This document shows positions 14,561 through 63,420 of a stretch of 64,000 nt of DNA, one piece after another. Made by a program: the position numbers and the translations under genes. Numbering within the stretch: position 1 is the first letter of the stretch; every line of letters starts with the position of its first letter. This DNA comes from Symbiodinium natans (lineage: Eukaryota > Sar > Dinophyceae > Suessiales > Symbiodiniaceae). The notes under the pieces are model-generated. The model had not been told where the DNA came from. It searched no databases and saw nothing but the letters and a program-made list of their open reading frames with translations. The stretch is taken from NCBI GenBank assembly GCA_905221605.1, contig CAJNDS010002379.1:1137001-1201000 (forward strand). Reading direction: 5' to 3'.

Positions 14561-14567
14561 GGGGCTT

Positions 14568-25406: not shown

Positions 25407-28400
25407 GTGATCGTTCAGCCCAAGACGGATGCAGACGTCGCCCGTACTGTCCGGAGGTCCATCCTAGTCTTGAGCTACTTGAATGGTTGTGTGGTCTCTT
25501 TTTGGATCCCCATGACAATAGGGCACCTAATTGTTAGGGTACCCAAAAGGGATCATGATTTTGATCACCTCCCTAAAAAAGATTGAAACAATAACTGGCT
25601 GGTTCTTGGTAGGGAATGAGGGAATTAGTATCCTATAATCATATCTCAAAGGCGCCGCGAACCCAGTACATGCAGCTATGACCAGTTGCAAGACATCTGA
25701 TGGTTTAAGGGACCATGTAAGCACCCTAAGATGAAACCTTAAGCCTGAAACCGCAGGACTGCAAAGCTCGGTCTGCCGTTGAGCGTGCGGAGTGGCGGGC
25801 ACAGCTACACTTGCGACGGGATTAAGCCGGGATCTGTCCATCTGGACTTGAGGCTCAGGTCGCTGGGCGAACTTCCTGGGAGGTTTTAGGGTTTAGGGAG
25901 GGTTTGGGGTTGTTTAGGGTTTAGGTTTAAGGTTTAGGGTTTAGGGTTGATCTTTTGCTCTGTTTCTGTTTTTGACCTTCGTGCTCGGTTCAGAAGCTGT
26001 CGCAGACTCGCTAAGGAAGCAGAAGCGTTTCTACAACAAAGATGGTGTTTGGTATGCTGAGTTTGAAACAGGGAATACATTCCGAGACCTCTTCCGGATC
26101 ATCGACCGCCGCCGCTTCTCGACTCTTGGGGCGTTTGTCTTTTTGGTCATTTTTTCTTTGGTACGGGTTTAGGGTTTGGGGTTTGGGGCTAGGTTTGGAG
26201 TGTAAGATCAGGGTCTCAAGAAAAAAACACATACTAAGAAAAAAATGCAAGGTGGACGTCCCTTGCCTTTGGGGTTTATTGTAGGGTGGTGGGTTTGTTT
26301 GTTTTGACCCGCCACGCGCCAAACCCAAAACCATGAGCCCTCCCTAGCAAGGTAATTTATATCTAGCGATGTAGATGACCCTAAACCTTAAACCCTAAAA
26401 CCCTAAACCTTAAACCGTAAACCCTAAACCCCAGGTTGGGGAATGGGAGTTCCTACGTAGGCTTCCTACTGCAACGCATTGTTGCGTTCATCGACGTCAG
26501 TCATGCTGACTGCTACTCTAGCTTCAGTTTAGGGTTCAGGGTTTAGGGTTTAGGGTTTAGGGTTTAGGGTGAACTGAAACGAGGATTGTGCATGGCGCCT
26601 GCCATGCGGTGGGTGTTGGAGGCTTCTATCTGCACGGAGGGCTGCATTTGAACTCGCTGACCGCTGCTCAGCTTCGATGAAACGTTCTGGCTCAGGAAAT
26701 AGGGTTCAGGGTTTAAGGTTTTCGGGTTTAGGGTTAAGTATTGATCTAAGTGGGGTAGAGTGGGAGGGTTCCCGTGTGGATGTTTTGCCAAGAAGCAGAA
26801 AAGGTTCCTGTTTTCTTGCCTTGAGTTGAGGATGTGCAGGTTTCCCTAAATTGGGGCAGCCTGATATACCCCCAATACAGCAAAAACCGCTTTGTAAGGA
26901 CCCCAAAATGGGTACTCTCCGGAGTTTGGAAACTCCCATGTGATCACGCAGGATCATGCCCACTTTTGTTCTCATCCTCATTGTTATGAGCTTCTCTCTG
27001 TCGTCTGATGGTGGTGAGAGCTCGTTGTTGTGATTATTTCTCATTGTTGTCGCTGTTGTTACCATTGTAGAATCGTAGCCCTCGCTTTTGTTGTTGCTTA
27101 GGAAGTGCGGCAAGTGATGAACATGCTTTTCGAATGAGGACCCCAATGAGTAAGCTGGGTAAGTAGGTTTCTACCAACAAGTGCTACGTAGAATTTCAGC
27201 TGTCTGGACTTCCAAGCACGAAACCTTCCTCTTGTAGCCATCAGCGAACGTGAACTGTAGTACATCAGGGTTCCATGTCTTGAACCTCACATATTGAGTT
27301 TCATCTATGCATGAAGGCGCGTGCAGTAGGAGTTTCCTGGAGAACACAGTATGCTTTTTATCGGGGGGCTAAGGCTTAGCCTGTCCCTACCATGCTTTCT
27401 TGGGCACCCCGCAGGCAGGCTTTTCCCTAAGCCCTAAGCCCTAAAGACGAAACCGTAAACCCTAAACCCGAAACCCTAAACCCTAAACCCTAAACCCTAA
27501 ACCCTAAACCCTTGAAGCCCGAAGGCTCTCTATGGCTGGGGCAACGAGTCGGTTGAAAGCATGACGGTTGTGACTTTCCTGCAAAGCGAAGACGGTCCAA
27601 GATAAAGCATGGTGGTCATCATGATACTCAGCACGGGGAGGGAGAACTTATCATAGCTGCACACCCTAAACCCGCAACACTAAACCCACAACCTCGAAGC
27701 CTGAACCCGATGTCACAGCAGAAAGGACGTCTTTTTGCCAATCTTTCCGGGCCCCGCTTTCCCCCAATAAGGCTAAGTAAGGAAGTGCGCAGCCGCAAAT
27801 CATCCCTAGACCGCCGCCAGAAAACGAGACGGCAGATCAGGGCCCCCAAAAACCCACATAAGCATAAGGATCCTACAAACAGGTTGTTTCGGAATCCCCC
27901 TTCTAGGGGCCCCTACACCCCAAGAGTGGGATCCTTGTGTTTATGTGGCGCCTGTAGATGTCAGGCAGCAAGGGCATCAATCATGACAATAAGATGCTCA
28001 ACCCTAAACCCTAAACCCTAAGCAGAAGTTGTGCTGTTGTTGTTCATGGTCTTCGGCGAACTCCTCCCGCCTGGATGGCGGAATCGATGGTTAAAGCTCT
28101 GAGCTCAGGTTTTCTAGCCCCTAAACCCTAAACCCTAAACCCTAAACCCTAAACCCTAAACCCTAAACCCTAAACCCTAAACCCTAAACCCTAAACCCTA
28201 AACCCTAAACCCTAAACCCTAAACCCTGCTTCGAAGGTGACCGCTGATGGGCGCATCCGGGCTCTCAACGCTTCGTCAGGCGACCAGGAGCTGGCTTTGG
28301 GGGGTTTAGGGTTTAGGGTTTGGGGTTTAGGGTTTAGGGTTTAGGGTTTAGGGTTTAGGGCTTTGGGCGGATTAAGGTTCGGGGTTTTCGGGTTTAGGGT

Positions 28401-31400
28401 TTAGGGCTTTTGGGTGTTTTTTTTGGGTTTAGCGTTTGGGGTTTAGGGCTTAGGGCTTTGGGTGGTTTAGGGTTTGGGGTTTGGGGTTTAGGGTTTAGGG
28501 CTTTGGGTGTGGTTTAGGTCTTTGGGGGGTTTGGGGTCTAGGGCTTTGGGCGGTTGTTCGTTCAGGGTTTTGGGTTTGGAGTTTTTTTGAGCGTAGGGTT
28601 TTTGCGCGTTTTGGGTTCTTTCATGGCTCCCAACTCGACGGGGGGGTGTTCTAATACGGGTTGGGCCATGAATAGAAGGATTCTTTGATAAATCGCACAC
28701 CCTAAGCCCTAAACCCATCCCTAAATTTGAACAACCCATGGGTTTTTTGGGGTCGCAGGCTGTCTCATGTTGGCAGCTTTAAGCCCACCCCCAAACCCTC
28801 AACTCGAATCAAGTCTAATTTGGGTTTAGGGCTTCGGGATCAGGGTTTCGAATCGGAGCCCTTTCTGACAGTGGATAAAAGGCCGGGGACCTACGCAGCT
28901 GCCCTTGCCATCAGTCTCAACACCGGCGGGGGTTCATTTGAGAGGAAGGGCCCTAAACCCTAAACCCTAAACCCTAAACCCTAAACCCTAAACCCTAAAC
29001 CCTAAACCCTAAACCCTAAACCCTAAACCCTAAACCCTAAACCCTAAACCCTAAACCCTAAACCCTAAACCCCCTAAACCCTAAACCCTAAACCCTAAAC
29101 CCTAAACCCTAAACCCTAAACCCTAAACCCTAAACCCTAAACCCTAAAGGGTTGTCGTGGTGATAGCTTTTCAACGCTGATCGTCCCGACTCCGGGCAGA
29201 GCAAGCTGCGCGAGTTCGAGAAGCCGCAAAGTTCATGAAGCCCTAAACCCTAAACCCTGAACCCTAAACCCTAAACCCTAAACCCTGAACCCTAAACCCT
29301 GAACCCTGAACCCTGAACCCTAAACCCTGAACCCTGAGCCCTGGACCCTGAACCCTAAACCCTAAACCCTAAACCAACACCCTAAACCCTAAACCTTGCT
29401 CACCTAAAGGATCTATGGTGGGCAATGCGTCGTGCTGGGTCCAACTTTGGCATTGCGACATCTTTGACGGTCAGGGCTTCTCTTCTGGATTTGTACAAAG
29501 TTTAGGGTTTAGGGTTTAGGGTTTCGCGTTTAGGGTTCAGGCTTTAGGGTTCAGGGTTCAGGGTTTAGGGTTGCCCGCCTTTCTTGGTTCTAGGTTCCCT
29601 TAAAAAGTAGCCTACACCAACAAGGATATCCTTATCATAATATCACGTCTTCTACATATTTCAGAGTCTCATTGCAGAGAGGCTACGCAATCGACCCCCC
29701 TCAAAAAAACAACATCCAAAAGTTGTATATGGTTCGCTTAGAAATTGCAGTTTCGATGAGCTGACAAATGCCTTTCCAGCCCAAAAGCACTGAGGTGTTC
29801 AACTTGTTTCTTGAGTCGGCGTACGTTACAAAGCACAAAGCTCAGCCCTTTGTTGAAGGAGTAACACCCCCCGACCTCATCCCGCTCAAGGTTTAGGACT
29901 TTCTTTCAAACTCAGTCAAAACATACTTGGGGCCCAAAGCCTGTAAAATTTCTATGCATCCTAAGCCCTAAACCCTAAACTCTAAACCCTGAACCCTAAA
30001 CTCTAAACCCTGAACCTTCCTCCGTCAGGCTTCGAGACTCAGGAACCACTCGCTTGCTTATGTTTCGGAAGCCCTGAGCTCTAAACTAGGCAGACCCCTT
30101 GGCATATTCCACATTTCTTCTGTTCTTGGGCTTGATGGCTGCTTTGTCCAGGGCGCAAAAGACCCTAAGCCCACCAAACCCCCAAATCCTAAGCCCCAAG
30201 CCTTAAACCCTAAACCTTCAAACCCTAAACCCTAAACTCTAAACCCTAAACCCTAAGCCCTAAACCTTAAACCCTAAACCCTAAACCCCAAACCTTAAAC
30301 CCCAAACCCTAAACCCCAAACCCTAAACCCCAAACCCCAAGCTTTTTTTCGAAGCCGAGGTGTTCGAGGCCCCTGAGCCGCAGACGTGGCTCTTTTGGGC
30401 TTCTTGGCCTTTGGTCCTGTAGGGTTTGGGGTTTAGGGTTTAGGGTTTAGGGTTTGGGGTTTAGGGTTTAGGGTTTAGGGTTTGGGGTTTAGGGTTTAGG
30501 GTTTGGGGTTTAGGGTTTAGGGCTGGGGTTGTCGGGGCTGTAGGGGCTTGAGGGGTTTTAGGGGCTTTAGGGGTTTTAGGGGGTTAGGGGTTTTGGGTTT
30601 TGTTTGGGTTTTGGGGATTTGGGGGCTTGAGGGGTTTCAGGGGCTTAGGGCAACGGCAGGCTAGGAGTTGGTACACTGCGCGTAGACGGCCGCTGGTCAT
30701 CGGGCATGTTCTGTGGGGGTGGCGCGCTGGGGTGGGGGTGGGGGTTCGGGGGCGGGTGTGGTGGGGGTGGGGTGGGGGTGGGGTGGGGGTGGGTGGGGGT
30801 GGGGCGGGATGGGGCTGGGTTGGGTGGGGTGGGGGATTATGACAATGCTCCAAAACACCGGTATTGACAGAGTTTGTTGCCTCTTTGCACAACATAGTGC
30901 AATAGATGCTTGATGCGCCTGGAACAAGGCGCGCTGTCAAAATCGCTCATGTCTTTTGTGAAAACGCCCTAAAACACTCATGGGTTCCCGTACTACCCCG
31001 TCTATACCGCCCCCCCTAGCCCTTAAATTTGCCTTTATTATGGGGGGAACCTAGGGGTAGTACCCTAAACCCTAAACTCTAAACTCTAAACCCTAAACCC
31101 TAAACGAGGGGTATGAAACACTGGTTGTTGCAGCGCTTTTTTTTTGGCTTCTCTGCAAAGCACACGCCGGCAGGGTGTTGGGCATGTCTGGAACAAGACG
31201 CGGTGTCACCCTAAATCCCCTTTACCGGGCTCCGCGTAGCCCCCATTTTGCGGTACGCTACGGGGTTTAGGGTTTAGGGTTTAGGGTTTAGGGTTCAGGG
31301 TTCAGGGTTCAGGGTTTGGGGCTTCAGGGTTTGGGATTCGCAAGATGTGTATGGCCATCAACTACAGGCATCCCGAAACGTAGCAATTCAGAAGTTAAGG

Positions 31401-34400
31401 ATCTAAACTCTACACCCAAATTATTCTCACATAGAAATGAATAAAAAACACATAAATCATCAATGAATAGAAAAATGAATATACATATAAATATACATAT
31501 AAATATACATATAAATATACATATAAATATACATATAAATATACATATAAATAAATAAAGATAAATAAATAAATAAAAATAGATAAATATAAATATAAAT
31601 AAATAAATAAATATAAATATATATTTGTATATATATATATATATATATTTTGTATCGAAAATGCCACTGTGGTTCAACTATTTATAAATAAATAAATAAA
31701 AAAAACAAATATAAATATAAATATAAATAAATAAATATATATACACATATTGTATATGTGTAGACATATGTGTATATGTGTATATATATATATATGCATG
31801 CTCCCCCCCCATGCGCCCACACTTCAGCATGGTTTACAGATGCAAATACTACGTTCCGCCATGCGCGGTCGTTCTTAATGGGGGGAGGAACTCCCATAAG
31901 AACTCCAGCAGAAGTGACCTGAACAATTTGCTTGAGATTGTGGACTGCATGCAATGAATTTACATAGAAATCCTATGCATGTGAATAGCCATGTGAATAG
32001 CGTTCCTATCAAATCTAAGGCTTATAAAAATACAGAGGCTATGAAAAATTATTGGAATCTTATAAACAGAAATAGGAATCTTCTTTTGAAATCCATAGGA
32101 ACCTTATTAAAATTAATCGGAACTGTATAAACAGTTAATAGGAAGCCAAGTGTCATGAATAGGAACCCTTTTAAAGTGAATGAGAACCATACTAGAATTG
32201 ATACGAATCCTAATAAACTGAAGAGGACCCCTATTTCACATTTATAGGAACCAATGGGACTCCTATAAAAAAGGATGTGAACCCTTAAATAATCGGAATC
32301 CTGATCCAGGCCAGCGCAACTCCAAAAGGGGCAGCTGCGGCAGACGTCATGACTTGCCGCTCAACGTTGTCTTTCGGGAGTCTTCCAGTTTTGGTGTTTT
32401 GCTGTGAGCTCCGCAGCTCCGTCTTCCCAAGCCCAGCAGGGTTCAGATGTGAGTTGTGCTTGCAAGCATCGACAAGTGCTTCCAGTGACCGTAGGGCCTA
32501 TAGGGCTAATTGCACCCACAGTGCCTTCGAACGATCATACCGCCATGTTCCTTTGAACTCTTTTCAGTGGCTGGCCGCAGGACTTCGCTTCGTCGCGTCG
32601 CCGCCCGGCCCACCGGCCGACTGCGACATGAGTAAGAACCTCGAAATTGATAGGAATCTTATTGCATTAGTAGGAGCCTTATTAAAATAATTTGGCACCC
32701 TATGAAACTTTATTGGAATCCTATGAAAATAAGTAGGATTCTTTGTTTGAATTCATAGCAATCCTATCAAAATTTATCGGCGCCGGATAAAAGCTAATAG
32801 GAAGCCTATTAAAATTAGTAGGAACCCTTAACAAATCAAAAAGAACGCGGTGGTAATTCATAGGAATCTTACTAAAATAAGAAGGGTTCTTACTAAGATT
32901 AAGAGGAACTACTGAGGAGGCCACATGTGCTCGGTGCCGTCTTCACTAGGGAAATCGCTGCCAGAAGTGGCGTCGCAGATTTTCGCAACTTGTCGCGCCG
33001 CTTTGCTGTCCATTCGCGGTGTCTTTTTCCTGCTCAGTCATGTCAAGTCCGAGTTGAGATCTTGCGGTGTAAGGAACTTGGACTGCTTTCAATTTGGCAG
33101 ACTGCGACCTCATGTGGTGCGCAATCGTGCCAGGGGAAAGGACGTGCAGGTGTCACGTGCGCGAGCCCACTTTTATGTGTGCTGCAAGAAGATCGGTAGT
33201 CTCTGGAACTACACAGACTGGTGGCCTTTTCTAGACTACGATGTCAATCCGAATTGGGTGACACTGTTTCCAAGCCTGGCGCCTTTCCTCGAGCAGTTCG
33301 ACTTCGCTACAAGTTATACGCTCTACAAGGTCCGAGTCAAGCCGCCAAGACCTCGTTTGTCAAGAGCCTGTTCAAGCAGCCTTTCGTGGTAACGGTGCAG
33401 AGTGCCAGCACCTTGAACCTGCATGATTTCACTTACGGTCACCACGATGCAGTGTGCCTCAGAGCTAAAAGTCGCAGTTGTTGCTGTTGTTGTCGTCCTC
33501 GTCATCGTTGTTGCGGTTGTCGCCGACACGCGTTCGAACAAGGGTTCTGGGCAATCTCAACGATTTTCAGTTTATATTTATACTGGATTACCGGGCGATC
33601 CTGCAGGCGAACACCTACACCCACCGGCTGGGCGACAGTGCAACGGGAATGTATGCCTACAGCGTCTACTTGTGGGCTACACCGGTTCTACTGACCTTGG
33701 TTCCCAGGTTTGGCCAAGCATGTGTTTGGCTTTTTAGCCAGTCCTCAAATTCAATTCCTCCATGTGTGCATTCATTTTCGCGCAGGATCTCGATGTGGAC
33801 AGCGCTTCGGCGTTCCGGCAGTCTGAGTGGTTGCGAGCCAATATTTACCTTGACAGCTAGGGCCATGGCCAAACGTGCTACATCGGAGGTGAACGTGCCT
33901 TAAACCCCATGTCATCAGTGCCACCGTTGCGTTTGCCACCGTTGCGTTTGCCACCATGAAGTCAGCTTTCGCCGCTGCTGCGCAAAAGCGTGATCGCAAA
34001 AGAATCGCTGCTTCTCGTGCCCCGAAGTCCGCGTCTTGCAGGACAGGTGTTCTAAGAGTGAGGCTTCCGAGCGCATGTCCGGCAGGAACGAAGCCGTTGG
34101 ATGCCACGTCTGCGTCATCTCGGGGCGCGGCGTGCCGACAACGTTTTGCGCTGTCAATTCGGCGTGGCGTGGCCTTGCCCTTTTTGTTTTCGGTTTAGAA
34201 AGCCTTTTGAGCCATGGCCTCGCAAAGTCGCTGTTACAGCAAGTACGATGCACAACCTACAGCCAAGATTGGCCATCCAATTTTTATCTGATATCCAATT
34301 GTAAAATACAGATGTGAGCAAGGGTTGTTAAGAGAAGATAGAACGGCTTAAAACGGGCCACATTGATGAAAATCAACGAGGCGCTCGCAAAATGTTGGAA

Positions 34401-37400: not shown

Positions 37401-40400
37401 TTGCGCAGCTCCTGTTTGCTTTTCGGCTCGGCCTTGTACTCTAGCTTAGGACCATGCGGTTTTGGGACAGGTTAATGAGGCTGGAGCTTGTTCACCCCAA
37501 TGTTTCCCAAAGTGGTCGCATCTTCTATTCCGATGCTGTTAAGGCAAGCTCTTTCCTGAGCATACAGTGTTCTGTCCTTCTTTCTTTCTTGTCCTCACTT
37601 CCTCTCGTTTTTCCTTAGTTTCTTTCCATTCTTCCTTTCTCTGTCTCGGTCCTTTAATTCTTTTTTTTTGTCTTTGCTTTTCGTCCTCACCTTCCTCGAT
37701 CCTTCCGAGCCCCAGGCCCCTCTCTCTTCGAGAAAGCAGAGGCTTTCCAAGCAAGAACACAGAGAACATAGAGTTTTGCTCCTAAAAAAGAAAAATGTAG
37801 GTTTTTCCTTTCCCCCCCCCGAACCCCCAAAAAATCGAGAAGAAATAGGCTCCCTTAGTGAATGGCAGGGCGACCTCCCCGCTTCACACGCGACAGGCAA
37901 CTGCGTTATCCACCCGGCCTGCCGCAAGTCTGCACTGTTCCAAGCCCAAAGCCCAAAGCCCAAAGCCCGAGCTTAAACCCGAAGTCACCCAAACCCTGGC
38001 AAGCTTTGGAAGTATTGTCCGCCAACACTCCCGCAGCGACCCCTGTGCCAGGAGCCCAAATAAATTTAGTTGGTGCTTCTGTGGGCTTCTTCCCAGTGCT
38101 CTTTCTAGTTTTTGTGACTCATCCAGGCCAGCTGCAGCCCCCACCATGGCCTGACCGGCCTGTGTGGCATGGGCAGCGTAAGCCCAATGGGTGGCATGGA
38201 TGGCCTGGGCGGCCTGTATGGCATGGGCAGCATAGGCCCAATGGGCATGGATGGCATGGGCGGCCCAATGGGCGGCGTGGGTGGCATGGTTCAGGCTCAT
38301 ATTCATTTAGTAGGATTCCTATTAATTCTTGTTAAAGGAATCTCATTTTTTTCATCGGAGTCCCATTACCACAAAGGCCCCCTCCCTAGCGGGTGCATTG
38401 CACTTGTCGAAACCAGCCCCATAATGAGGCATTCGAAACTGGCCAACAGCATGTTTGCTTGTTTTGGCTTAAAAAAGAGTGGCTTTTTTGGGAAGGTACA
38501 GCGTTTTTGCTCTTGTGTGCCTAAAACATTGGTGCAGTAGAGCGCTTTCGTGCTTCGAAATCCTAAACCTCTAAACCCTACCATGGCACCTGAGACAGGA
38601 AAAAGTGTGGGCATATGGGGGGGGGTAGTATATATATATATGTATGTATATTTGTATATATATATATATATGGAGATATGGGTCACACCCGAAGCCATGG
38701 ACCCTCCGCGTCCTTGCGATTTCTCTTCGGTGGGTTCTTGAGCGACCATGCAGCCAAAGCAAAGTAGAACACCCCCCACCCCCATACCATTTTATTGATA
38801 AACTGTAAACCCTAAACCTGGACCCTAAACCCTTTCTGACAGTCGAAGAGGGGCTTTTGGAAACCCTGAACCCTAAACCCGAAACCCTAAACCCTAAATC
38901 CCAAGCCCCCAACCCGATGCTTCGGTAAGGTGAAGATGTCCCACGATGAGGTTGTCAACCTCTTCCTCAGGTCCATGTCGGATCTGGAGGTTCAGCTCAA
39001 CCTCTATTACGTGAACCCTCCCTTTTTCCAGGCGGGTCTAGGGTTTAGGGTTTAGGGATAAAGTGGTCAAGGGTTTGGGGTTTGGGGTTGAGGGTGTGGG
39101 GTTTTAGGTGAGAGATTGCGGTGTAAGGCTTCCAGTTCTGTTACGTAAACCCTGCCCTTTCCAGGCAGGGGTTTGTGGTTTCACCCCAAACCCTAAACCC
39201 TAAACCCTAAACCCTAAACCCTAAACCCTAAACCCTAAACCCTAAACCCTAAACCCTAAACCCTAAACCCTAAACCCTAAACCCTAAACCCTAAACCCTA
39301 AACCCTAAACCCTAAACCCTAAACCTTGTTTCGAAGGAGCCGAAGTCTTTGATCTTTAATGCAGGTGGGTGGAGTCTTTCTTTTGGATGCCTTCACTGGC
39401 CTGGAACCCTAAACCCTGAACCCCAAATCCTAAACCCAAAAACCCTAAAACCCGAAACCCTAACCCTAAACCCCAAATCCTAACCCTAAACCCTAAATCC
39501 TAAAACCCTAAATCCTAAGCCCTAAACCCTAAACCTCCTTTTTGTCTGAGGTGAGCCTCAGCAGGCCCGACATCTTCACACTGCAGTTCACCCTGCTCCG
39601 GGGACCTCGTGACTACTGGCAGAACTTGCGGGCCAGCTTCTGGTCTCTTGTTAAGGTTTAGGGTTTAGGGTTTAGGGTTTCAGGTGCAGGGTTTTGGGGG
39701 ACTCAAAAGAAGTTACAAACTAGACTTGGGATGTTCCCCTTATGCTAACAGTCCTTAACAGGGATTGTAGTACCCCCATTATAGCCCCCCATTAAGGACT
39801 GTTAGTATAAGGGGGGAACATCCCAAAACTAGACCCCTAATTCTTCAACTCTGCCGAACAAACACATATAGTACAGATGGTACGGGAACCGAGTTTAAGT
39901 TCCTTCCGAGGACCGGGAGTAGGCCCTTGTTTCCTTCTTTTCAGGGTTGGGGTTCCCCCTTATAATCCCCTTAAACCAGAAAGGGCAGCCTTTTCATTCC
40001 TAGGTTACTCCCGGGTCCCTAAACCCTAAACCCTAAACCCTAAACCCTAAACCCTAAACCCTAAACCCTAAACCCTAAACCCTAAACCCTAAACCCTAAA
40101 CCCTAAACCCTAAACCCTAAACCCTAAACCCTGAACCCTGAACCCTGAACCCTGAACCTGAACCGAACCCTGAACCCTGAACCCTGAACCCTAACCCTAA
40201 ACCCTAAACCCTAAACCCTAAACCCTAAACCCTAAACCCTAACCCTAAACCCTAAACCCTAAACCCTAAACCCTAAACCCTAAACCCTAAACCCTAAACC
40301 CTAAACCCTAAACCCTAAACCCTAAACCCTAAACCCTAAACCCTAAACCTAAAAAGGCTTAAACTGGCTCGGCTCACATGGCGTGCCTCTTTCCTGGTGG

Positions 40401-41822
40401 ACGGTTGCTTTCAACGCCGTCGTTCCGAAGCTGGGAGTGTTTTTGAGTATGTAAGGTCTGGCTCTTGCATTCCTGGGAAAGAGCAATCTCCCAAAACCCT
40501 AAACCCTAAACCCTAAACCCTAAACCCTAAACCCTAAACCCTAAACCCTAAACCCTGAACCCCAAACCCTGCCCGCGAGGCATGAATATAATGAACAAGG
40601 CATGAACGAAGTACGGGAACAAAGTGAATGCAGCATATTTTGTATTACTAATGAAATCTCATTTACAATCATATCCTTGTCCTTTGATCATAAATTATTT
40701 TTGGAATATTGGTTTTTTTTATTAGGAATTACTATTTTATTACAAATTATTACAGGAATCTTCTTAGGTTTACATTATACATCAGATATTAATTCAGCAT
40801 ATTTTTCTCTTTTCTTTTTAGTTAGAGAAATATATTATGGATGGTGTTTACGTTATCTTCATTCTAATGGTGTATCATTTGTCTTTCTTTTTATATTTCA
40901 ACCCTAAACCCTAAATCCTCAACCCTCAATCCTCAGCCTCAAAACCAGCGAAGGAAGCCCGATGATCTTACACACTTGGGCTATCCGGCCGCCTGGGTAT
41001 CCTCGCAAGCGATTTGGCCTACTGGCTCCTCGTGCACAGACAATGCCCTGCACCTGCTCCCCACCGGCACGTCAAAGATTTCGGGTTTAAATCCTAAGCC
41101 CTAAACCCGAAACCCCAATCCCCAAACCCTAAGCCCTAAACCCTAAACCCTAAGACCCTAAACTAGAGTTTAGGTAGGGCTCTTCTGGGCGCGCCTCGTT
41201 TACAGACATTTTTTTCGAGGGTTTCACAGGGGTCCGCCTTAGGCTTCTGGACCAGCAGTCGGCGATTGTTCGACGAGCTCATTTTCACTCCTTTCGGAAG
41301 CCAGGGTGCTGGCTGACGTTCTCGAGGCTCTGGGGTTTAGGGTTTTGAGGGTTTTTTAGGGTTTTTAGGGTTTTTAGGGTTTTTAGGGTTTTTAGGGTTT
41401 TTGGGGTTTTAAGGGTTTTTAGTGTTTTTTGGGGCTTTTGGGGGTTTTTGGGGTTTGTGGGGTTTTAGGGTTTCTAGGGTTTTTAGGGTGTTTAGGGGGT
41501 TTTTAGGGATTTTAGGGTTGTTAGGGTTTTAAGGTTTTCAGGGTTTTTCAGAATTTTTACGTTCCCCAGGCTCCCTGGCGATCAGATTTACTACGAGTAC
41601 AACTGCCCCAGCCGCCCAGCTTACCTCCAGCACCTGCGCGACGTGGAAACCAGTTTTGAGGGCATGTGCCCCAGTTCGGTGAAGTACCGCAACACACCCC
41701 ACTGGAATGCCAGTGCCAAGCGCTACTATCCCGACGCTCGCGAGCTCTTGCAGACAAAGAGAAAGTGGGATCCACTGAATCTGCTCGGGCCTGCATTGAT
41801 GTCTGTCCAGGATCTCGCCTAG
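25407..41822 (+). CDS. FAD-linked oxidase (BBE/PCMH-type) gene, multi-exon, introns filled with telomeric repeats
   Basis: Phase-matched exons: 25407-25456, 26016-26132, 26584-26662, 27525-27566, 28237-28293, 29410-29499, 29795-29890, 30360-30413, 38930-39031, 39337-39360, 39551-39655, 40357-40450, 40954-41070, 41220-41305, 41542-41822. Together they give about 460 codons, close to the usual 450-550. In order they show [16 protein letters not shown] (FAD-domain start), [31 protein letters not shown] (the Cys is the usual 6-S-cysteinyl-FAD position), [40 protein letters not shown], and the C-terminal [19 protein letters not shown]. All acceptors are AG|G; donors are GT or GC. Such enzymes oxidise sugars, alcohols or alkaloids using FAD and O2; the substrate is unknown. 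The GGH histidine segment and the true start were not found. Exons at 30.36, 39.34 and 40.36 kb are less sure, and the 39.6-to-40.4 junction is ambiguous. Confidence 0.75.
26016..26132 (+). CDS. FAD-linked oxidase exon, pre-Cys strand
   Basis: It reads [18 protein letters not shown] then [13 protein letters not shown]. Acceptor CTAAG|G and GT donor after a two-base overhang (GC). The next exon supplies the third base, giving an Ala codon. The in-frame upstream extension ([15 protein letters not shown]) may also be coding. Confidence 0.65.
26584..26662 (+). CDS. FAD-linked oxidase exon, flavin-attachment Cys motif
   Basis: It reads [20 protein letters not shown], matching the family pattern G-x-C-x-x-VGVGG-x-x-L-x-GG. 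It starts at ACGAG|G. The donor is taken as GC at 26663, because the frame hits a stop 15 bases later. It has TTTAGGG tracts on both sides. Confidence 0.75.
27525..27566 (+). CDS. FAD-linked oxidase exon, YG-x-x-x-E-S-V
   Basis: 14 codons ([14 protein letters not shown]) between CCCGAAG|G and a GT donor. They match the family segment that normally reads KYGLASDNVLSM. It has CCCTAAA copies immediately upstream. Confidence 0.6.
27853..27950. repeat. Short inverted repeat
   Basis: The CCCACATAAGCATAAGGATCC arm at 27853-27873 pairs with 27929-27949 with few mismatches, around a 55-bp loop. It lies inside an intron of the oxidase gene. Confidence 0.75.
28119..28227 (-). repeat. CCCTAAA telomere-type tract
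   Basis: About 15 perfect heptamers ending 9 bp before an oxidase exon acceptor. Confidence 0.95.
28237..28293 (+). CDS. FAD-linked oxidase exon, TADG motif
   Basis: It reads [19 protein letters not shown], the conserved strand before the DLFWA motif. Acceptor CGAAG|G, GC donor, CCCTAAA on the left and TTTAGGG on the right. Confidence 0.7.
28848..28951 (+). other. Unplaced coding-like island
   Basis: Open on plus, reading [20 protein letters not shown] then LNTGGGSF. It lies within what I model as an intron of the oxidase gene. It could be an alternative exon, another gene's exon or chance. Confidence 0.25.
28951..29149 (-). repeat. CCCTAAA telomere-type tract
   Basis: About 28 heptamers, perfect except for one CCCCCTAAA junction at about 29069. 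Confidence 0.95.
29410..29499 (+). CDS. FAD-linked oxidase exon, DLWWA...NFG motif
   Basis: It reads [18 protein letters not shown] then [12 protein letters not shown], the best conserved block of the family (usually DLFWALRGGGGNFGIVT). Acceptor CTAAAG|G. The GT donor is itself the first GT of a TTTAGGG tract (AAA|GTTTAGGG). Confidence 0.85.
29795..29890 (+). CDS. FAD-linked oxidase exon, substrate-domain part
   Basis: It reads [19 protein letters not shown] then [13 protein letters not shown]. Acceptor CTGAG|G, donor AAG|GTTTAG. Exact multiple of three. Weak family similarity is expected in this domain. Confidence 0.5.
30420..30660 (+). repeat. TTTAGGG/TTTGGGG tract grading into irregular G-rich DNA
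   Basis: Alternating TTTAGGG and TTTGGGG units to about 30525, then degenerate GGGGCTTTAGGGG words. GGGGTGG repeats (30712-30835) follow, with potential for G-quadruplexes. Confidence 0.9.
31262..31335 (+). repeat. TTTAGGG/TTCAGGG tract
   Basis: Short telomere-type run that ends at the left boundary of the 7-kb block without telomeric repeats. Confidence 0.9.
31480..31800. repeat. AT-rich microsatellites
   Basis: (ATATAAATATAC)n, (AAAT)n and (TA)n runs. Confidence 0.95.
32925..33903 (+). other. Coding-like region inside the inverted-arm block
   Basis: Frame 32925-33392 includes [20 protein letters not shown] and ends after [11 protein letters not shown] with a possible GT donor. Frame 33540-33720 reads [20 protein letters not shown] and [20 protein letters not shown], with a CAG|G-bounded intron at about 33705-33785. 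These look like exons of an unrecognised, possibly membrane-associated protein. The links between them are not in clear phase. Confidence 0.3.
34295..34566 (+). repeat. 145-bp tandem duplication
   Basis: Copies start at 34295 and 34440 (CCAATTGTAAAATACAGATG), diverged by several substitutions and small indels. Confidence 0.9.
34661..34873 (+). repeat. 115-bp tandem duplication
   Basis: Copies start at 34661 and 34776 (TTTGTCCCGATCTTTGGGTG) and are nearly identical over about 98 bp. Confidence 0.9.
34900..35037. mobile_element. 138-bp foldback element (TTGGAGGTTCATGG family)
   Basis: Arms 34900-34939 and 34998-35037 are reverse complements at about 36 of 40 positions. A diverged relative lies at 54809-54925. 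No target duplication is visible. Confidence 0.65.
36240..36475. repeat. GGGACAGTACAGC repeats
   Basis: The word TTTTTGGGACAGTACAGC occurs twice direct (about 36362 and 36416) and in inverted or partial form at about 36275 and 36462. A decayed copy lies at about 38486. Confidence 0.75.
37134..37330 (+). repeat. About 80-bp repeat, three copies
   Basis: The word TTGCAAACACAATGCTCGC recurs at about 37135, 37218 and 37298 with diverged spacers. Confidence 0.75.
38168..38300 (+). other. Gly/Met-rich repeat, possibly coding
   Basis: The plus strand reads [15 protein letters not shown] then [16 protein letters not shown]. Such low-complexity tails occur in RNA-binding proteins and chaperones, but a GGCATGG minisatellite without coding function is equally possible. 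Confidence 0.25.
38627..38672. repeat. TA microsatellite
   Basis: Interrupted TATATATA run. Confidence 0.9.
38930..39031 (+). CDS. FAD-linked oxidase exon, substrate-domain part
   Basis: It reads [20 protein letters not shown] then [14 protein letters not shown]. Acceptor GTAAG|G, GC donor. CCCTAAA on the left, TTTAGGG on the right. A diverged copy of its last 40 bp lies at 39129-39168. Confidence 0.5.
39187..39325 (-). repeat. CCCTAAA telomere-type tract
   Basis: About 20 heptamers. The left edge (about 39172-39190) is a head-to-head turn from GGTTTGTGGTTT. Confidence 0.95.
39551..39655 (+). CDS. FAD-linked oxidase exon, substrate-domain part
   Basis: It reads [20 protein letters not shown] then [15 protein letters not shown]. 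Acceptor CTGAG|G, GT donor formed by the telomeric tract. An internal GC donor after CGGGCCA would instead give the phase needed by the next exon. Confidence 0.5.
39726..39826. mobile_element. 101-bp MITE-like element with 8-bp target duplication
   Basis: The ends TTGGGATGTTCCCC and GGGGAACATCCCAA are inverted, continuing as CTAACAGTCCTTAA / TTAAGGACTGTTAG. AACTAGAC flanks both sides (39718-39725 and 39827-39834). A second 101-bp copy lies at 62288-62388 and a right half at 52589-52654. An 8-bp duplication fits hAT-type transposition, though the end sequence is not diagnostic. Confidence 0.85.
40018..40350 (-). repeat. CCCTAAA telomere-type tract, longest in the window
   Basis: About 47 heptamers with an internal stretch of CCCTGAA, CCTGAACCGAA variants at 40131-40190. 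Ends 7 bp before a modelled oxidase acceptor. Confidence 0.95.
40493..40575 (-). repeat. CCCTAAA tract next to the mitochondrial fragment
   Basis: About 11 heptamers; 75 bp of other sequence separate it from the cob-like frame. Confidence 0.95.
40650..40900 (+). pseudogene. cob: Nuclear fragment of mitochondrial cytochrome b
   Basis: An AT-rich frame contains [40 protein letters not shown] and [16 protein letters not shown], the N-terminal transmembrane helices of dinoflagellate/apicomplexan cytochrome b. It keeps one heme-ligand His (LHSNG) but is cut just before the next, where CCCTAAA copies start with no spacer. It is about 85 of roughly 370 residues, so not functional. Its base composition differs sharply from its neighbours. 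It lies in an intron of the oxidase gene (40451-40953). A small mitochondrial contaminant joined in assembly is the alternative. Confidence 0.85.
40954..41070 (+). CDS. FAD-linked oxidase exon
   Basis: It reads [19 protein letters not shown] then [19 protein letters not shown]. Phase 2 in and out, matching 40357-40450 upstream and 41220-41305 downstream. CCCTAAA tracts on both sides; the mitochondrial cob fragment lies in the intron before it. Confidence 0.5.
41220..41305 (+). CDS. FAD-linked oxidase exon, PFG motif
   Basis: It reads [20 protein letters not shown] then IFTPFGSQ. The IFTPFG segment matches the family's conserved PFGG-type strand. Acceptor TTCGAG|G, GT donor in phase 1. Confidence 0.55.
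41335..41545 (+). repeat. TTTTTAGGG variant tract
   Basis: GGGTTTTTA-type repeats with longer T runs than the standard heptamer, directly before the terminal oxidase exon. Confidence 0.9.
41542..41822 (+). CDS. FAD-linked oxidase terminal exon
   Basis: It opens with [16 protein letters not shown] (family: aFPHR-x-G) and continues through [35 protein letters not shown] follows, the K-x-K-x-DP C-terminal signature. A TAG stop follows about 11 codons later. The upstream part of the exon is embedded in TTTTTAGGG-like sequence. Confidence 0.75.
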
Positions 41823-41904
41823 TGGCCGAAGTCCGGGAACCTCCGGAAGCTCCGGCCAGGAGCACTTTAGCTTCAGCCGAGCCGGCGCGCCATGCGGAAA
41901 ACCT

Positions 41905-42520: not shown

Positions 42521-42618
42521 AGCCTTGGGGAAGAAAAGACTGTCTCACCCCCGCACCCGAAATGAGAACAATCAAGGAATCTCTGCCTTCATTTCAGGAG
42601 GAGGCATGTCCCTTTCCC

Positions 42619-45206: not shown

Positions 45207-45245
45207 ACTCCTCACTCACTCACTCACTCACTCACTCACTCACTC
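45207..45245. repeat. (ACTC)n microsatellite
   Basis: About nine tetramers. Confidence 0.95.
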
Positions 45246-57699: not shown

Positions 57700-57831
57700 A
57701 GCACTGTTGGTCCCTTCGTAAGGCTCAAGCAGTTCGTCCTTGCCGCTTGCCTTGCCATGGCGAACGCAGCCCCTGCTCCGACCCAGCTTCCCCACTTCCT
57801 CGACCTGGAGATCTTACAGGAGTCACCCTAA
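57700..57831 (+). other. Coding-like island with signal-peptide-like stretch
   Basis: It reads VRLKQFVLAACLAMANAAPA then PTQLPHFLDLEILQESP. The basic start and hydrophobic Ala-rich core ending in small residues resemble a cleavable targeting peptide. The stop is supplied by CCCTAAA. CCCTAAA tracts on both sides. Gene unknown. Confidence 0.35.
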
Positions 57832-57966
57832 ACCCTAAACCCTAAACCCTAAACCCTAAACCCTAAACCCTAAACCCTAAACCCTAAACCCTAAACCCTG
57901 AACCCTGAACCCTAAACCCTGAACCCTGAACCCTGAACCCTAAACCCTAAACCCTAAACCCTAAGC
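57827..57966 (-). repeat. CCCTAAA/CCCTGAA tract
   Basis: About 20 heptamers, the later half rich in CCCTGAA. Confidence 0.95.
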
Positions 57967-58007
57967 CCATGATGATCATGATTGTTGCTATTTGTTAGCT
58001 ACTTTGC

Positions 58008-58190
58008 TTGTTGTTTTCTACCATGACCCTTGCTATTCTCATTACCCTTGTGATCATTGTTGTCATTGCTTATTATGTTTGTCGTTGGAATCGTATATCG
58101 ACTGTTAGGAGATGTTGGGAGATGAACATTCACCGGATGGCATCGTGCAGCACGCCGGTAGATGAGGTTTCGAAACGGCTTTCAGAGTAG
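58008..58190 (+). other. Open frame with one transmembrane segment
   Basis: It reads TLAILITLVIIVVIAYYVCR followed by a polar tail (CWEMNIHRMASCS, VDEVSKRLSE) and a TAG stop. It looks like the C-terminal end of a single-pass membrane protein. CCCTAAA on the left, TTTAGGG on the right. No upstream exon identified. Confidence 0.35.
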
Positions 58191-58350
58191 CAGCTAAACC
58201 CGAGTACCCGAACCCTAAACCTCCGTTCAAATCCGTATAGGGTTTAGGGGTTTAGGGGGTTTAGGGGTTAGGGGTTTACGGGTTTAGGGTTTAGGGTTTG
58301 GGTTTAGGGTGTAGGGTTTAGGGTTTGGGGTTTAGGGTTTAGGGCATTAA

Positions 58351-58527
58351 ATGCCTTGCAAGCCCCTCTTTCCCCGCAAGCCCCGGAGCGGCGAGGAGCT
58401 GCGAGACGAAGAGACAGACAAGGATCCGCAGCGAAAGCGGAGGCACCTGGAGTCCGAAAAGTGCGCGCGGGACCTGCGCGAGTTCCTCCAGGCCATGGGA
58501 GATGGGGTTCAGGGTTTTAGGGTTTAG
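58351..58527 (+). other. Coding-like island, charged helix
   Basis: From ATG 58351 it reads MPCKPLFPRKPRSGEELRD, DPQRKRRHLESEKCARDL and REFLQAMGDG before entering TTTAGGG. The highly charged composition suits a coiled-coil or nuclear protein. A possible GC donor follows REFLQ. It may be upstream in the ankyrin gene. Confidence 0.35.
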
Positions 58528-58739
58528 GGTTTAGGGTTTAGGGTTTAGGGCTTCGGGTTCAGGGTTTAGGGTTCAGGGTTCAGGGTTTAGGGATTAAGGA
58601 TGAATACGGACCATCCCAAGAAATGAGGATTGGCAACGTTCGTCTGCTTAAGGGATCTTCCTGAAGATGTTTTGGGGGCGCCGGGGTTTAGGGAGTTTGG
58701 GGTTTCAGGGTTGTTCGGGGGTTTCTGTGTTTACAGTTT

Positions 58740-58821
58740 GACCCGCCGCCCGGCCGCAACCAAGCCTTTTAGAATGATCGACCTTGCCGGAGCAGACTAC
58801 GAGGCAATGTGCTTGGCTTAG
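58740..58821 (+). other. Coding-like island with stop
   Basis: It reads LTRRPAATKPFRMIDLAGAD then YEAMCLA and a TAG, after TTTACAG. It may be the last exon of an unknown gene. Confidence 0.3.
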
Positions 58822-58871
58822 CAATCCTTTTGCAGAGTACATGTCCAAAGCCCAAAAGCCTAGATCCCTAC

Positions 58872-59075
58872 AGCCCTAAACCCTAAACCCTAAACCCTAA
58901 ACCCTAAACCCTAAACCCTAAACCCTAAACCCTAAACCCTAAACCCTAAACCCTAAACCCTAAACCCTAAACCTAACCCTAAACCCTAAACCCTAAACCC
59001 TAAACCCTAAACCCTAAACCCTAAACCCTAAACCCTAAACCCTAAACCCCAAACCCTAAACCCCAAACCCCAAAA
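58872..59075 (-). repeat. CCCTAAA telomere-type tract
   Basis: About 29 heptamers with one CCTAA slip at 58972. Confidence 0.95.
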
Positions 59076-59118
59076 GCCGAAGCCGAAGGCCCACCAGTTC
59101 TCAGAGGATGTCACGGAA

Positions 59119-59148
59119 CCCAGGATACGCTCTTCCTGCTGGAGCTTC
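59119..59148 (+). other. Possible ankyrin-gene exon
   Basis: It reads DTLFLLELLQ between ACCCAG|G and a GC donor. The LL-x-LL pattern resembles the outer helix of an ankyrin repeat and lies upstream of the clear ankyrin exons. Phase to 59879 does not match directly. Confidence 0.3.
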
Positions 59149-59738
59149 TTCAGGCCAAGGGTTCGGGGTTTAGGGTTTAGGGTTTAAGGGTTTAGGGTTT
59201 AGGGTTTAGGGTTTAGGGTTTAGGGTTTGGGGTGCTATGTGGGCTCTACTCAGGGTCCTCTGTACCAGACTTCGAGGCCGGCTTAGAAGTGCAGTTTCCT
59301 GGGGGTCCGGGGCTTGAGGGTACATGGTTTGGGGTTAGAACCCCTAAACCCTAAACCCTAAACCCTAAACCCTAAACCCTAAACCCTAAACTCTAAACCC
59401 TAAGTTCTCAGGCTCAGGGTTTGGTGTAGGGTTTAGGGCTTGGGGCTTACGTTTGAGGGTTGAGGTTTAGGGCAGTTTCAGGGCCTATTCAGGACTAAAC
59501 CTCACCCCCAACGCTGAACCCCGAACCCCTGAACCCTCACCCTCGAACTCTGAACCCTAAACCCCCAAAACCTTGAACTCGAAATCCTAAACCCTCAGCC
59601 CTAGCCTACCCCCTAAACCCTGGAAACCCTGAAAACCCTAAACCCTATACTCGAACCCGAAAAGACCCTAAAAAGCATAAACCCTGAAAAACCCCAACCC
59701 CAAAACCCCACACCCTAAACCCTGAACAACCCTAGACC

Positions 59739-59865
59739 TTAAACCCTAAACCCTAAACCCTAAACCCTAAACCCTAAACCCTAAACCCTAAACCCTAAAC
59801 CCTAAACCCTAAACCCTAAACCCTAAACCCTAAACCCTGAACCCTGAACCCTGAACCCTGAACCC
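59739..59865 (-). repeat. CCCTAAA tract ending in CCCTGAA
   Basis: About 18 heptamers, 13 bp before an ankyrin exon. Confidence 0.95.
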
Positions 59866-59878
59866 TGTCTATGCCTAG

Positions 59879-62671
59879 GCCAGAGCGGACCTTCCCCCTT
59901 CACGTGGCTGCTGGTCTGGGCGATCCGCAGCCCCTCTGCTCGCCCAAAGGTTCGGGTTTAGGGTTTAGGGTTTAGGGTGTAGGGTTTAGGGTTTCGGATC
60001 TAGGGTTTAGGGGTTTAGGGGATTGGGCTCAAGAATGCTGTGTTTCATATGGTCGCGGGGTTCAGGGTTTCGGCTTGAATCCTAAACCCTAAAGCCTAAA
60101 GCCTAAACCCGAAACCCTAAAAAACAGTAGAAAAAGAAATACGGGGCGAAGTCCCCTGTAAGCCTTGCGCCACTTGAAGCACACATAAGTTGCCTCACCC
60201 CCCGTGCCCCCTTCTGCAACTTGTCTTGAGAAGTTTAGGGTTTAGGGTTTAGGGTTTAGGGGAATATGAAGGATTTGGTCTTGGATTATCATCTTCCTCC
60301 GCCCATGACCAGCCAGTCTTAAGTGGGTTTAGGAGCAGGGGTTTTGGGTTCGGGTTTCGGGTTTCTCTGAGGGTAGTTTCATGGGCCCTTAAATATGGTC
60401 CGCAACCTCCTTTGTAGGGTTTTGATGTATGTACCCTTAATTTGTATAGGGTATATAAGGGGTTCTCAGATGTAACCTGGGCCCTAAGCCCTAAAGCCCT
60501 AACCCCTAGCCCCTAACCCTAAACCCTGCACCCTAAACCCCCCCTTTAAGGGGTTTAGGGTTCCTCGCATGGTGCAAGATGTCTTTCCATCTCCGACCCT
60601 AGAACGCCCTCAGCTGCTCTCCCTCCTACCCTAAGAGCCAGCAAGTCCCCCAAACCCTAATTCCGAAGCCCTAAACCCTAAACCCTAAACCCTAAACCCT
60701 AAACCCTAAACCCTAAACCCTAAACCCCAAACCCTAAACCCTAAACCCTAAACCCGAAACCCTAAACGCTACACCCTAAACCCTAACATTGTCTCAAGGC
60801 TTGTCCAGGTTCTGTTGAAGAACCGCGCGAACCCGCAGGTGCTTTGAACTTTCTCAAGGAAGTTACATTGGTCGCTTGTTGCTTTCTTTCTTAGTAGCTG
60901 AGTGAGTGCACTTTACACTTTTTGGGATACTATAACCCCCTCTAGAACTGAAAGAGTACACTTTTTGGGGGGCTTAAGAACTCAGCAACTAAGCTTTCAA
61001 GGTTTATAGGGTTTAGGGTTTGGGCCATGGGTTTTCGGGGTATAGAAGGGGTATAGCAGGGTTCCCCAAGTACAGGCCCACAAATAATAAGGGACCTGAG
61101 AACTTTGAGCGCGAGGGGCTTCAGGAGTTCAGGATTTCCGGTTTAGGGTTCAGGGTTTGGGGGTTTAGGGTTTAGGGTTAGGGGTTGAGGTTTTAGGGCC
61201 TGGCGCTGCGGCCTAGGGTTTGGGGTTATCGGGTTTACGGTTTTGGGGTTCAGGGGTTTTGGGCTCAGGGTTTAGGGTTCAGCGGTTGTCGGGTTTTAGG
61301 GTGTTAAGGTTTAGGGCTTCGTGAATTCCGGGGTATGCCCACAGGGCTGGGCCGCTCCTGAAGAAGAAGAAGAAGAAGAAGAAGAAGAAGAAGAAGAAGA
61401 AGAAGAAGAAGAAGAAGAAGAAGAAGAAGAAGAAGAAGAAGAAGAAGAAGAAGAAGAAGAAGAAGAAGAATAAAAAGAAGAAGAAGAAGAAGCTCTAAAC
61501 CCCCCAGTAAGCCCCTAAACCCTGAACCCTAAACCCCAATCCCCAAACCCTAAATCCTGAAACCCTAAGCCCTAAATCCTGAACCCTAAGCCCTAAACGC
61601 GAAGCCCTAAACCCTGAACCCCTAAACCCTAAACCCTAAACGCTAAACCCCAAATCCTAAACCCTAAACCCTAGGGGTTTAGTGGTTGGGAGGGTATGAG
61701 GGCTAGAGTCTCGGGGCTTGCGGGTTTGGGGCTTGCGTGTTGTGTGTGCTTGTTGGGCGCCAGGGCATGGGTTTAGGGTTTAGGGTTTGGGTTTAGGGTT
61801 TAGGGTTTGGGGTTTAGGGTTTAGGGTTTAGGGTCTAGGGTTTAGGGTTTAGGGTCTAGGGTTTAGGGTTCAGGGTTTAGGCTTCAGGGTTCAGGGTTTA
61901 GGGTTCATGGTTTAGGGTTTAGGGTTCAGGGCTTTGGGTTTAGGGGTTTTGGCCATGCTAGGGCGTAAGTGAAGGGTTTGCCGGCTTTCGAGATTGATGG
62001 CTTCAGGCTCAGGGAAATCACGGAAACCCAGCCTAACCCTAAACCCTAAACCCTAAACCCTAAACCCTAAACCCTAAACCCTCAACCCTCAACCCTAAAC
62101 CCTAAACCCTAAACCCTAAACCCTAAACCCTAGACCCTAAACCCTACACCCTAGACCCTAGACCCTAAACCCTACACCCTAAACCCTGAACCCTAAACCC
62201 TAAACCCCACAACCTCAAGAAAGCCGTAAATCCTAAACCCTGGAGGCCGCTGGGTTTAGGCTTTAGGGTTTCGGGTTTAGGGTTCGGTTGGGATGTTCTC
62301 CCATATACCAACAGTCCTTGATAGGGATTATAAGAGGGGGTACTATTATCCTTATTAAGGACTGCTAGTATAAGGGGGAACATCCCAAGAATCCCAGGCC
62401 GTAAGCCGTAAAAACCCTAGGCCCTCAACCCCAAACCCTAAACCCCAACATGTAAACCCGAAACCCCAAAATTCTAGAGCCTAAACCCCAAACCCCAAAC
62501 CCCAAACCCCAAACACTAAACCCTAAACCCTAAACCCTAAACCCTAAACCCTAAACCCTAAACCCCTAAACCCCTAAACCCGAAACTGTGAGGGACTCTT
62601 GGCCTCAACCCCGCGCAGGCCACCGATTCGGCAGGGAAGACCGCGTTGGATGTGGCTCTCAAGTCAGACAG
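59879..62671 (+). CDS. Ankyrin-repeat protein gene (three exons of one repeat)
   Basis: The exons are 59879-59926 (PERTFPLHVAAGLGD plus two bases; GC donor), 60799-60838 (LVQVLLKNRANPQ; GT donor) and 62619-62671 (ATDSAGKTALDVALKSD plus two bases; GT donor). All acceptors are AG|G. Junction phases match (2-2, then 0-0). The joined product is an ankyrin repeat with correct spacing: PLHVAA, 11 residues to LL, then ANP and D-x-x-GKTALDVA. Ankyrin repeats mediate protein binding. The introns (872 and 1780 bp) consist mostly of telomere-type repeats, and the second also holds a GAA microsatellite and ends of other repeats. The repeat number and gene ends are unknown. Confidence 0.7.
60665..60786 (-). 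repeat. CCCTAAA tract before the second ankyrin exon
   Basis: About 17 heptamers with CCCCAAA and CGCTACA variants. Confidence 0.95.
60889..60992. repeat. Short inverted repeat
   Basis: CTTAGTAGCTGAGT at the left pairs with ACTCAGCAACTAAG at the right. Inside are two direct copies of GTACACTTTTTGGG-like words. It lies in the second ankyrin intron. Confidence 0.65.
61361..61493 (+). repeat. (GAA)n microsatellite
   Basis: About 43 triplets, one AATAAA interruption near 61470. It follows a CCCACAG|G acceptor-like site, so a poly-Glu exon cannot be excluded, but it lies in the modelled ankyrin intron. Confidence 0.95.
61765..61935 (+). repeat. TTTAGGG/TTCAGGG tract
   Basis: About 22 heptamers with TTCAGGG and TCTAGGG variants. 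Confidence 0.9.
62033..62215 (-). repeat. CCCTAAA tract with CCCTAGA and CCCTACA variants
   Basis: About 26 heptamers. Confidence 0.95.
62288..62388. mobile_element. 101-bp MITE-like element, second full copy
   Basis: Same length and ends as 39726-39826 (TTGGGATGTTC / GAACATCCCAA). No target duplication is visible. It lies in the second ankyrin intron. Confidence 0.8.
62512..62583 (-). repeat. CCCTAAA tract before the third ankyrin exon
   Basis: About 10 heptamers. TTTAGGG copies follow the exon from 62683. Confidence 0.9.
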
Positions 62672-63420
62672 GTGGGGGGGGGGGTTTAGGGTTTAGGGTT
62701 TAGGGTTCAGGGTTCAGGGTTCAGGGTTCAGGTTTGGGGCTTTCAGTTTAGGTTTTAGGGTCTAGGGTTTCGGGTTTAGGGTTCAGGGTTTTCTGAGTTG
62801 AGGGGTTGCCTTGTTGTCTTGGTGCAGGGGAAAGGGCTTCGGGTTTGGGGTGTCCGGATGTCCCATATCCCACCGGGGTTTACGGTTTAGGGTTTAGGGC
62901 TTGGGGTCTAGGGTTTCAGAGAATGGGGATTGGGTCGGAGCAGGTTTCCCTGTAAAGCCAAATGCTCCATCCCTCCGTAGACCCTGAATCCTAAACCACT
63001 CACTAAACCCTAAGCCAGTCAATCCTCAACCCTGAACCAGTCAACCCTCAACCCTAAACCATTTCTGAGCAAGCCCTAAGTAGCCCTAAACCCTAAACCC
63101 TAAACCCCCTAAACCCCAAACCCTAAACCCTAAACCCTAAACCCTAGACCCTAAACCCTAAGCCCGCAAACCTGACACCCTGAACCCTAAATCCAAAGCC
63201 GGCCTCATCCCTGCTTGCACAAACCCTATACTTCGTACTTGGAAGGGCTTTGACTTAGTAAGTAAGGTTCGTAAGTTGAGTTAAGGAGGGGGGGGGGTTT
63301 AGGGTTTCGGGTTCAGGGTTTCGCAGGGAATGAGGGAGCGGAGGGGTAGTCTATATCCTAAACCCGAGCCCCTATATAAGCCCTAAACCCCAAGTCCCAG
63401 ACTTGCCATAACCAAAACCC

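Follow-up and report, generated by a model that had tools for sequence, protein, structure and literature searches.

Several described systems resemble the arrangement reported here. ITS, telomere-repeat arrays that lie away from chromosome ends, are reported to be inserted during break repair in primates and rodents (PMC7215372). Introner elements of Amoebophrya, as described in passages of PMC7789003, carry inverted repeats of 8-20 nt and direct repeats of 3-5 nt and spread in the manner of mobile elements. Further comparisons are offered by the nonconventional introns of euglenids (PMC4770533) and by the inverted repeats around exons that promote circRNA (PMC8516420). Dinoflagellates are a group with unusual GC/GA splice donors, and TTTAGGG is their telomere repeat in general (passages of PMC11453091), on which basis we apply it to Symbiodinium natans.

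We analyzed a 64,000-nucleotide stretch of an S. natans contig, called the window below, together with the rest of the genome (759,417,921 bases in 2543 contigs, window included). Exact hits to a three-unit TTTAGGG query, overlaps included, number 1,185,204 + 1,184,385 in the whole genome, compared with 41 + 33 for a control, and these arrays lie away from chromosome ends, as ITS do. The dinoflagellate spliced leader, searched genome-wide, gave 104 + 101 sites and a control of 0, which marks the genome as that of a dinoflagellate. Telomere-like sequence makes up about half the length, on average, of the 35 introns we examined. The orientation of these arrays is linked to exons throughout the genome, with (CCCTAAA)n (C arrays) tending to lie to the left of an exon and (TTTAGGG)n (G arrays) to its right. 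Among the matches listed from an open-access library, none described how ITS are oriented where they adjoin exons.

Opposed arrays bracket exon-sized islands in the window

The original prediction named eleven exons between opposed arrays. Each of these islands is indeed flanked by a C array to its left and a G array to its right, and the array coordinates are real. Ten of the 11 islands measure 74-140 nt; the one at 60799 spans 220 nt, with a G array on the right that is weak, of two units, and lies 166 nt beyond the coding part. The features of the window that bear on this arrangement are as follows.

28119..28227: acceptor-side (CCCTAAA)n array of exon 28237
28237..28301, plus strand: oxidoreductase-like exon candidate; codon score 11.0, weak PDB match jointly with the next exon
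28302..28360: donor-side (TTTAGGG)n array
29351..29395: acceptor-side C array
29410..29499, plus strand: exon candidate of 30 residues, then GTTTAGGG; weak PDB match, low island codon score of 6.2
29500..29572: donor-side G array
30331..30419, plus strand: C-to-G island with an open frame; score 10.7, without Pfam match
38899..39038, plus strand: C-to-G island, exon candidate; score 17.6, other strand 12.2
39536..39654, plus strand: C-to-G island, exon candidate; score 11.2, other strand 9.8
41577..41819, plus strand: probable BBE-like C-terminal exon of the putative oxidoreductase gene; codon score 19.4 in the first model
46205..46317: C-to-G island of the original prediction; strand scores 8.3/9.3
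47398..47481: C-to-G island of the original prediction; strand scores 12.0/12.1
53731..53845, plus strand: C-to-G island with an open frame; score 12.2, without Pfam match
59839..59953, plus strand: ankyrin-repeat exon 1 in a C-to-G island; coding at about 59880-59950
60787..60841, plus strand: ankyrin-repeat exon 2; preceded by a C array at 60652-60786, with only a weak G run at 61007
62582..62681, plus strand: ankyrin-repeat exon 3 in a C-to-G island
62682..62707: donor-side G array of ankyrin exon 3

Across the whole window, 21 of the 45 pairs of adjacent arrays spaced 60-125 nt apart are C-to-G and 9 are G-to-C, where shuffled labels predict 11.3 C-to-G pairs (P=0.00015). This excess was absent at the other spacings in the window (3 of 21 pairs at 0-60 nt, 5 of 34 at 150-400 nt and 1 of 17 beyond 400 nt). 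Within the span covered by the original prediction, pairs at 60-150 nt differ only modestly, with 17 C-to-G versus 11 G-to-C; upstream of position 28100 the counts are 6 versus 1.

Whether the islands are exons varies from case to case. When joined, those at 59879, 60799 and 62619 form one ankyrin repeat, with a Pfam match to Ank_5 above the curated cut-off (E 6.8e-9, with exon ends picked to fit; an alternative joining gave 1.5e-6). The case is weak for 28237, 29410, 38930 and 39551, and the remaining four, at 30360, 46221, 47407 and 53766, are open frames only. Coding signal is missing in several of the 21 C-to-G islands of 50-200 nt in the span of the original prediction. From their sequence, 28237, 29410, 38930 and 39551 plausibly belong to one FAD/BBE-type oxidoreductase gene at about 28-42 kb: comparison with the PDB returned FAD oxidoreductases at E 0.04-1.5, with an unrelated chain as top match at 0.013, and the candidate exon at 41577..41819 matched Pfam BBE at E 0.052, under the cut-off. 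Pfam searches with the other short exons, joined or single and excepting the ankyrin exons, gave sub-cut-off matches only.

Several long coding-like open stretches that are free of arrays lie at 33234-33963, inside the putative oxidoreductase gene, and a tandem repeat with a unit of about 1.77 kb, without telomeric arrays, occupies 10100-20200. A palindromic element about 100 bp long that forms a hairpin (predicted RNA fold -64.9 kcal/mol, z -8.4) sits in introns and near other genes; its copies lie at 62289-62388 and 39726-39825 of the window, partially at 52585-52654, and elsewhere at L071:1121-1220, L070:1662-1760, L024:802-902 and L012:97-203. The copy at 39726 is flanked on each side by 'aaactagac', resembling the target-site duplication of a MITE.

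Orientation bias is genome-wide and follows coding signal

Pairs of two-unit arrays were counted across the genome at three gaps. At 80-110 nt, C-to-G pairs outnumber G-to-C pairs 83,227 to 35,412 (ratio 2.35); at 300-330 nt the counts are 143,516 and 134,098 (1.07), and at 0-30 nt they are 2282 and 6284 (0.36), so that among the gaps tried a marked C-to-G excess occurs only at exon size. These figures are counts of start phases in which long arrays are counted many times, and they are independent of strand turning and of the codon model.

To relate orientation to coding, we applied a retrained codon model to 185 islands, each 60-200 nt long, taken from the window and from ten loci. Nearly half of the C-to-G islands scored as coding (48% of 73), compared with 21% of 43 G-to-C, 22% of 36 G-G and 15% of 33 C-C islands (P=8e-6 for C-to-G versus the other three types). 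Islands without coding signal are about evenly divided, at approximately 38 C-to-G, 34 G-to-C, 28 G-G and 28 C-C when calculated from the rounded fractions. In the window alone the mean coding score is higher for G-to-C (10.1) than for C-to-G islands (8.8), and the threshold is passed by 21% and 52% of them, respectively.

The original prediction stood to fall if orientation at exon borders were unbiased genome-wide or if intergenic islands were equally biased. Pattern counts made independently of annotation show the bias, 2.35-fold at 80-110 nt, and the coding score, likewise independent of annotation, shows that the 185 islands are not equally biased when coding signal is lacking (about 38 versus 34); as far as these counts and islands reach, neither condition refutes the prediction. 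Since the bias is genome-wide, of exon size and nearly absent without coding signal, it looks selectable rather than like debris.

These counts also bear on an origin by break healing, in which double-strand breaks would be capped at both ends by telomerase and then rejoined, leaving C-left/G-right islands separated by TTTAGGG-CCCTAAA junctions. Such islands would have the orientation of natural chromosome ends, G-to-C pairs are 2.75 times as frequent as C-to-G pairs at 0-30 nt, and the insertion of ITS during repair in primates and rodents counts in its favor. We nonetheless consider this origin improbable, because the bias follows coding-like islands and is nearly absent elsewhere, G-to-C pairs placed back to back are few (6284 at 0-30 nt versus 35412 at 80-110 nt), and strings of arrays in introns do not alternate strictly. 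Back-to-back (TTTAGGG)n(CCCTAAA)m, the arrangement of telomere-telomere fusions, is not the main one in this genome. The scarcity of these pairs, together with the small bias at islands without coding signal, leads us to reject fusion or break healing as the dominant cause.

Dynein exons provide an independent test

Because the exons of the window had been selected by eye, we turned to dynein genes for an independent test. Searching with the Pfam model of the dynein AAA1 domain yielded 37 matches, comprising large array-free exons and small exons, some of the latter in ITS-rich genes. The test set consists of 37 exons from three ITS-rich genes, 16 found by tblastn and 21 by codon score and eye, with exon ends located from genomic sequence to about 10 nt only. 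Counts around them used strand-corrected sequence, dynein homology and candidate exons from the first codon model; the C-left/G-right and skew patterns are invariant under reversal. Two other gene sets were set aside: HSP70 loci had too few exon-adjacent arrays, and the TCP1 family gave 6 matches only.

Among the nearest arrays that lie no more than 50 nt from the 37 dynein exons, C outnumbers G 20 to 4 on the acceptor side (P=0.0015) and G outnumbers C 21 to 7 on the donor side (P=0.013). The 16 exons found by tblastn, taken alone and within 100 nt, gave 11 C to 1 G before the exon and 9 G to 3 C after it. With arrays at any distance the bias around the 37 exons is weaker, at 26 C to 10 G for acceptors (P=0.011) and 24 G to 12 C for donors (P=0.065). 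Polarity reaches about 200 nt past donors and up to about 400 nt ahead of acceptors, so donor and acceptor ends differ; at 300-400 nt past donors the C strand prevails.

The dynein genes are of at least two kinds, some with large exons without arrays (C1812, C96, C1971) and others with exons of about 25 residues (C2492, C1790, C158), and introns of the small-exon genes measure about 0.3-2.6 kb. A piece of one dynein exon seems to have been duplicated directly upstream of itself (L072:9533-9577 and 9674-9760).

Compared by eye, C1768, a dynein gene free of ITS, shares two intron positions with ITS-rich dynein genes, one following the TDRCY-x-TL motif and one preceding the ITMNPGYAG exon, and the arrays at these two positions therefore seem to be invaders of older introns. 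This finding argues against introner-type gain, in which introns would have been inserted as elements with telomeric inverted ends. The Amoebophrya introners, which have inverted repeats at intron ends (passages of PMC7789003), are a precedent for such gain, but the distances at which the arms start vary here, and 35 masked introns have no end-to-end common element, only short matches and, in a few, the hairpin of about 100 bp. Near-identical copies of an element, each creating an intron, were thus not what these introns contain, and we regard this origin as very unlikely.

Intron ends show no preference for their own partner

According to the original prediction, intron ends are kept complementary: the donor-side G arm pairs with the acceptor-side C arm, loops out the intron and joins the splice sites. 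Predicted duplexes between 120-nt intron ends are indeed strong, with means of about -74 to -77 kcal/mol, the most frequent intron type is G-first/C-last (14 of 31), polarity reaches 200-400 nt and so exceeds the core splice signals, and G-to-C pairs exceed C-to-G pairs at 0-30 nt genome-wide (6284 versus 2282). We compared each intron with permuted partners in a set of 35 (31 dynein introns and the four window introns of the original prediction), excluding from the introns one L072 stretch with unseen exons. Duplexes with an intron's own acceptor averaged -74.3 kcal/mol compared with -77.3 for permuted ones (P=0.75, n=35), which shows no partner preference, and an own-partner advantage was likewise absent with 31 and 26 introns (P=0.85). 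These ends are thus no more complementary to their own partners than to the ends of other introns, as those of structured introns would be.

The orientations themselves tell against such pairing as well. The 31 dynein introns comprise 14 G/C, 7 G/G, 8 C/C and 2 C/G types (donor/acceptor, an intron with a single array having the same letter at both ends). Complementary ends, found in 16 of 31, are not in excess (Fisher P=0.68), and the densities of donor and acceptor arms are uncorrelated (rho -0.13, P=0.48, n=31). Five of the 31 introns may hide exons, because they span dynein residues outside every listed exon; dropping them left 12 G/C, 5 G/G, 8 C/C and 1 C/G with the outcome unchanged, and donor and acceptor orientations are independent in these 26 gap-free introns too (Fisher P=0.38). 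Since pairing is symmetric, C-donor/G-acceptor introns should work equally well, yet there are 2 of them versus 14 of the mirror type (P=0.004). Folding of 18 exon-intron-exon stretches, with introns no longer than 900 nt, placed 816 pairs across the intron and 826 and 802 across the flanking exons; arms fold across exons about equally, and a geometry that joins donor and acceptor would therefore loop out exons just as well. We consider selected pairing between the ends of an intron unlikely. Generic, non-specific pairing may have a modest effect, in what is a small sample of 26-35 introns. Of the original reading, the selectable look of the bias at exon borders stands, and the pairing of donor arm with acceptor arm as the selected trait is not supported (P=0.75 for partner preference).

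Cooperation could instead be centered on the exon, with the C and G arms around one exon acting together by exon definition or by cross-exon pairing, the latter of which would favor circular RNA or the skipping of exons. The densities of the two arms tend to be correlated across exons (rho 0.32, P=0.057, n=35) and not across introns (rho -0.13, n=31), and in 42 predicted exon folds, 7 of them from the window and all read without a shuffled control, the median number of upstream bases that pair over the exon is 59 of 150. The correlation reaches a P of only 0.06, though, and miscalled exons would yield the same correlation, so we think an exon-centered effect improbable, about as much so as break healing.

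Orientation may be filtered separately at each splice site

The reading we prefer, at a probability of about 0.5, is that arrays invaded older introns and that their orientation was filtered at each splice site separately, complementary ends being a by-product. Arrays would have entered pre-existing introns, often to within about 10-40 nt of exon edges, where compatibility with the splice site would filter orientation one end at a time. Ahead of an exon the C strand would be retained, CCCTAAA being C-rich, free of AG and equipped with a branch-site-like CTAA; past the exon the G strand would be retained, as TTTAGGG supplies G runs and GT. Orientation is near random in intron interiors and in islands without coding signal, and any pairing between the resulting complementary ends would be generic and common to introns and across exons. 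The filter, we infer, is splicing itself.

Base composition upstream of exons partly fits a filter of this kind. AGG, as in an AG|G acceptor, dips to 7.7 per kb (5 cases) at 12-30 nt upstream compared with 19-29 in other bins, and CTAA is densest at 40-120 nt, with 4.2-5.0 per 100 nt compared with 2.6 beyond 200 nt, a peak that is not independent of the arrays because CTAA belongs to the C repeat. Against such a filter, AG is not depleted near acceptors (AG/GA is 1.3-2.2 in all bins); avoidance of all AG before acceptors is accordingly rejected, only AGG dipping at 12-30 nt. With AG undepleted and the AGG dip this narrow, avoidance of cryptic acceptors cannot explain polarity that extends to 200-400 nt, and polarity deeper than the known core signals is the main gap in the splice-site filter. 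The wrong strand is also tolerated, C being found in 7 of the 28 nearest donor-side arrays within 50 nt. The weaker bias with arrays at any distance, the prevalence of C at 300-400 nt past donors and the higher mean coding score of G-to-C islands in the window count against the filter too. Finally, sampled ITS-free introns show no strand skew, which speaks against the filter, as these introns give no sign that the splicing machinery had such a preference beforehand; it also dismisses, for the sampled ITS-free loci, a prior GC skew of introns as the cause.

A bolder version is that telomeric repeats have become general exon-marking signals, with the C strand acting as splicing sequence at acceptors and the G strand at donors. 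We think this doubtful, though somewhat likelier than selected pairing of intron ends. If true, a repeat that is selfish or made by repair has taken over in part from the usual signals of introns and now delimits the small exons of very long genes. If the splice-site filter holds, more than 2 million overlapping repeat matches and the splice-site-oriented repeats among them amount to a natural experiment on what the splicing machinery tolerates beside exons, and show a way for repeats to fill introns without breaking genes.

Comparison with known systems

The arrays share with ITS elsewhere that they are short, built of degenerate units of the organism's own telomere repeat and located inside chromosomes; they differ in their extreme abundance, their intronic location and an orientation linked to exon borders. 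Like the Amoebophrya introner elements, as these appear in passages of PMC7789003, they concern dinoflagellate introns with complementary inverted end repeats that could approximate exon borders, whereas here the arms are long and telomeric, some introns are seemingly older than the arrays, and no end-to-end common element is present. The dinoflagellate introns studied here differ from the nonconventional introns of euglenids (PMC4770533) in having no partner-specific pairing. The inverted repeats that promote circRNA likewise place reverse-complementary repeats on either side of an exon (PMC8516420), while the bracketed exons of S. natans are known from genomic sequence alone.
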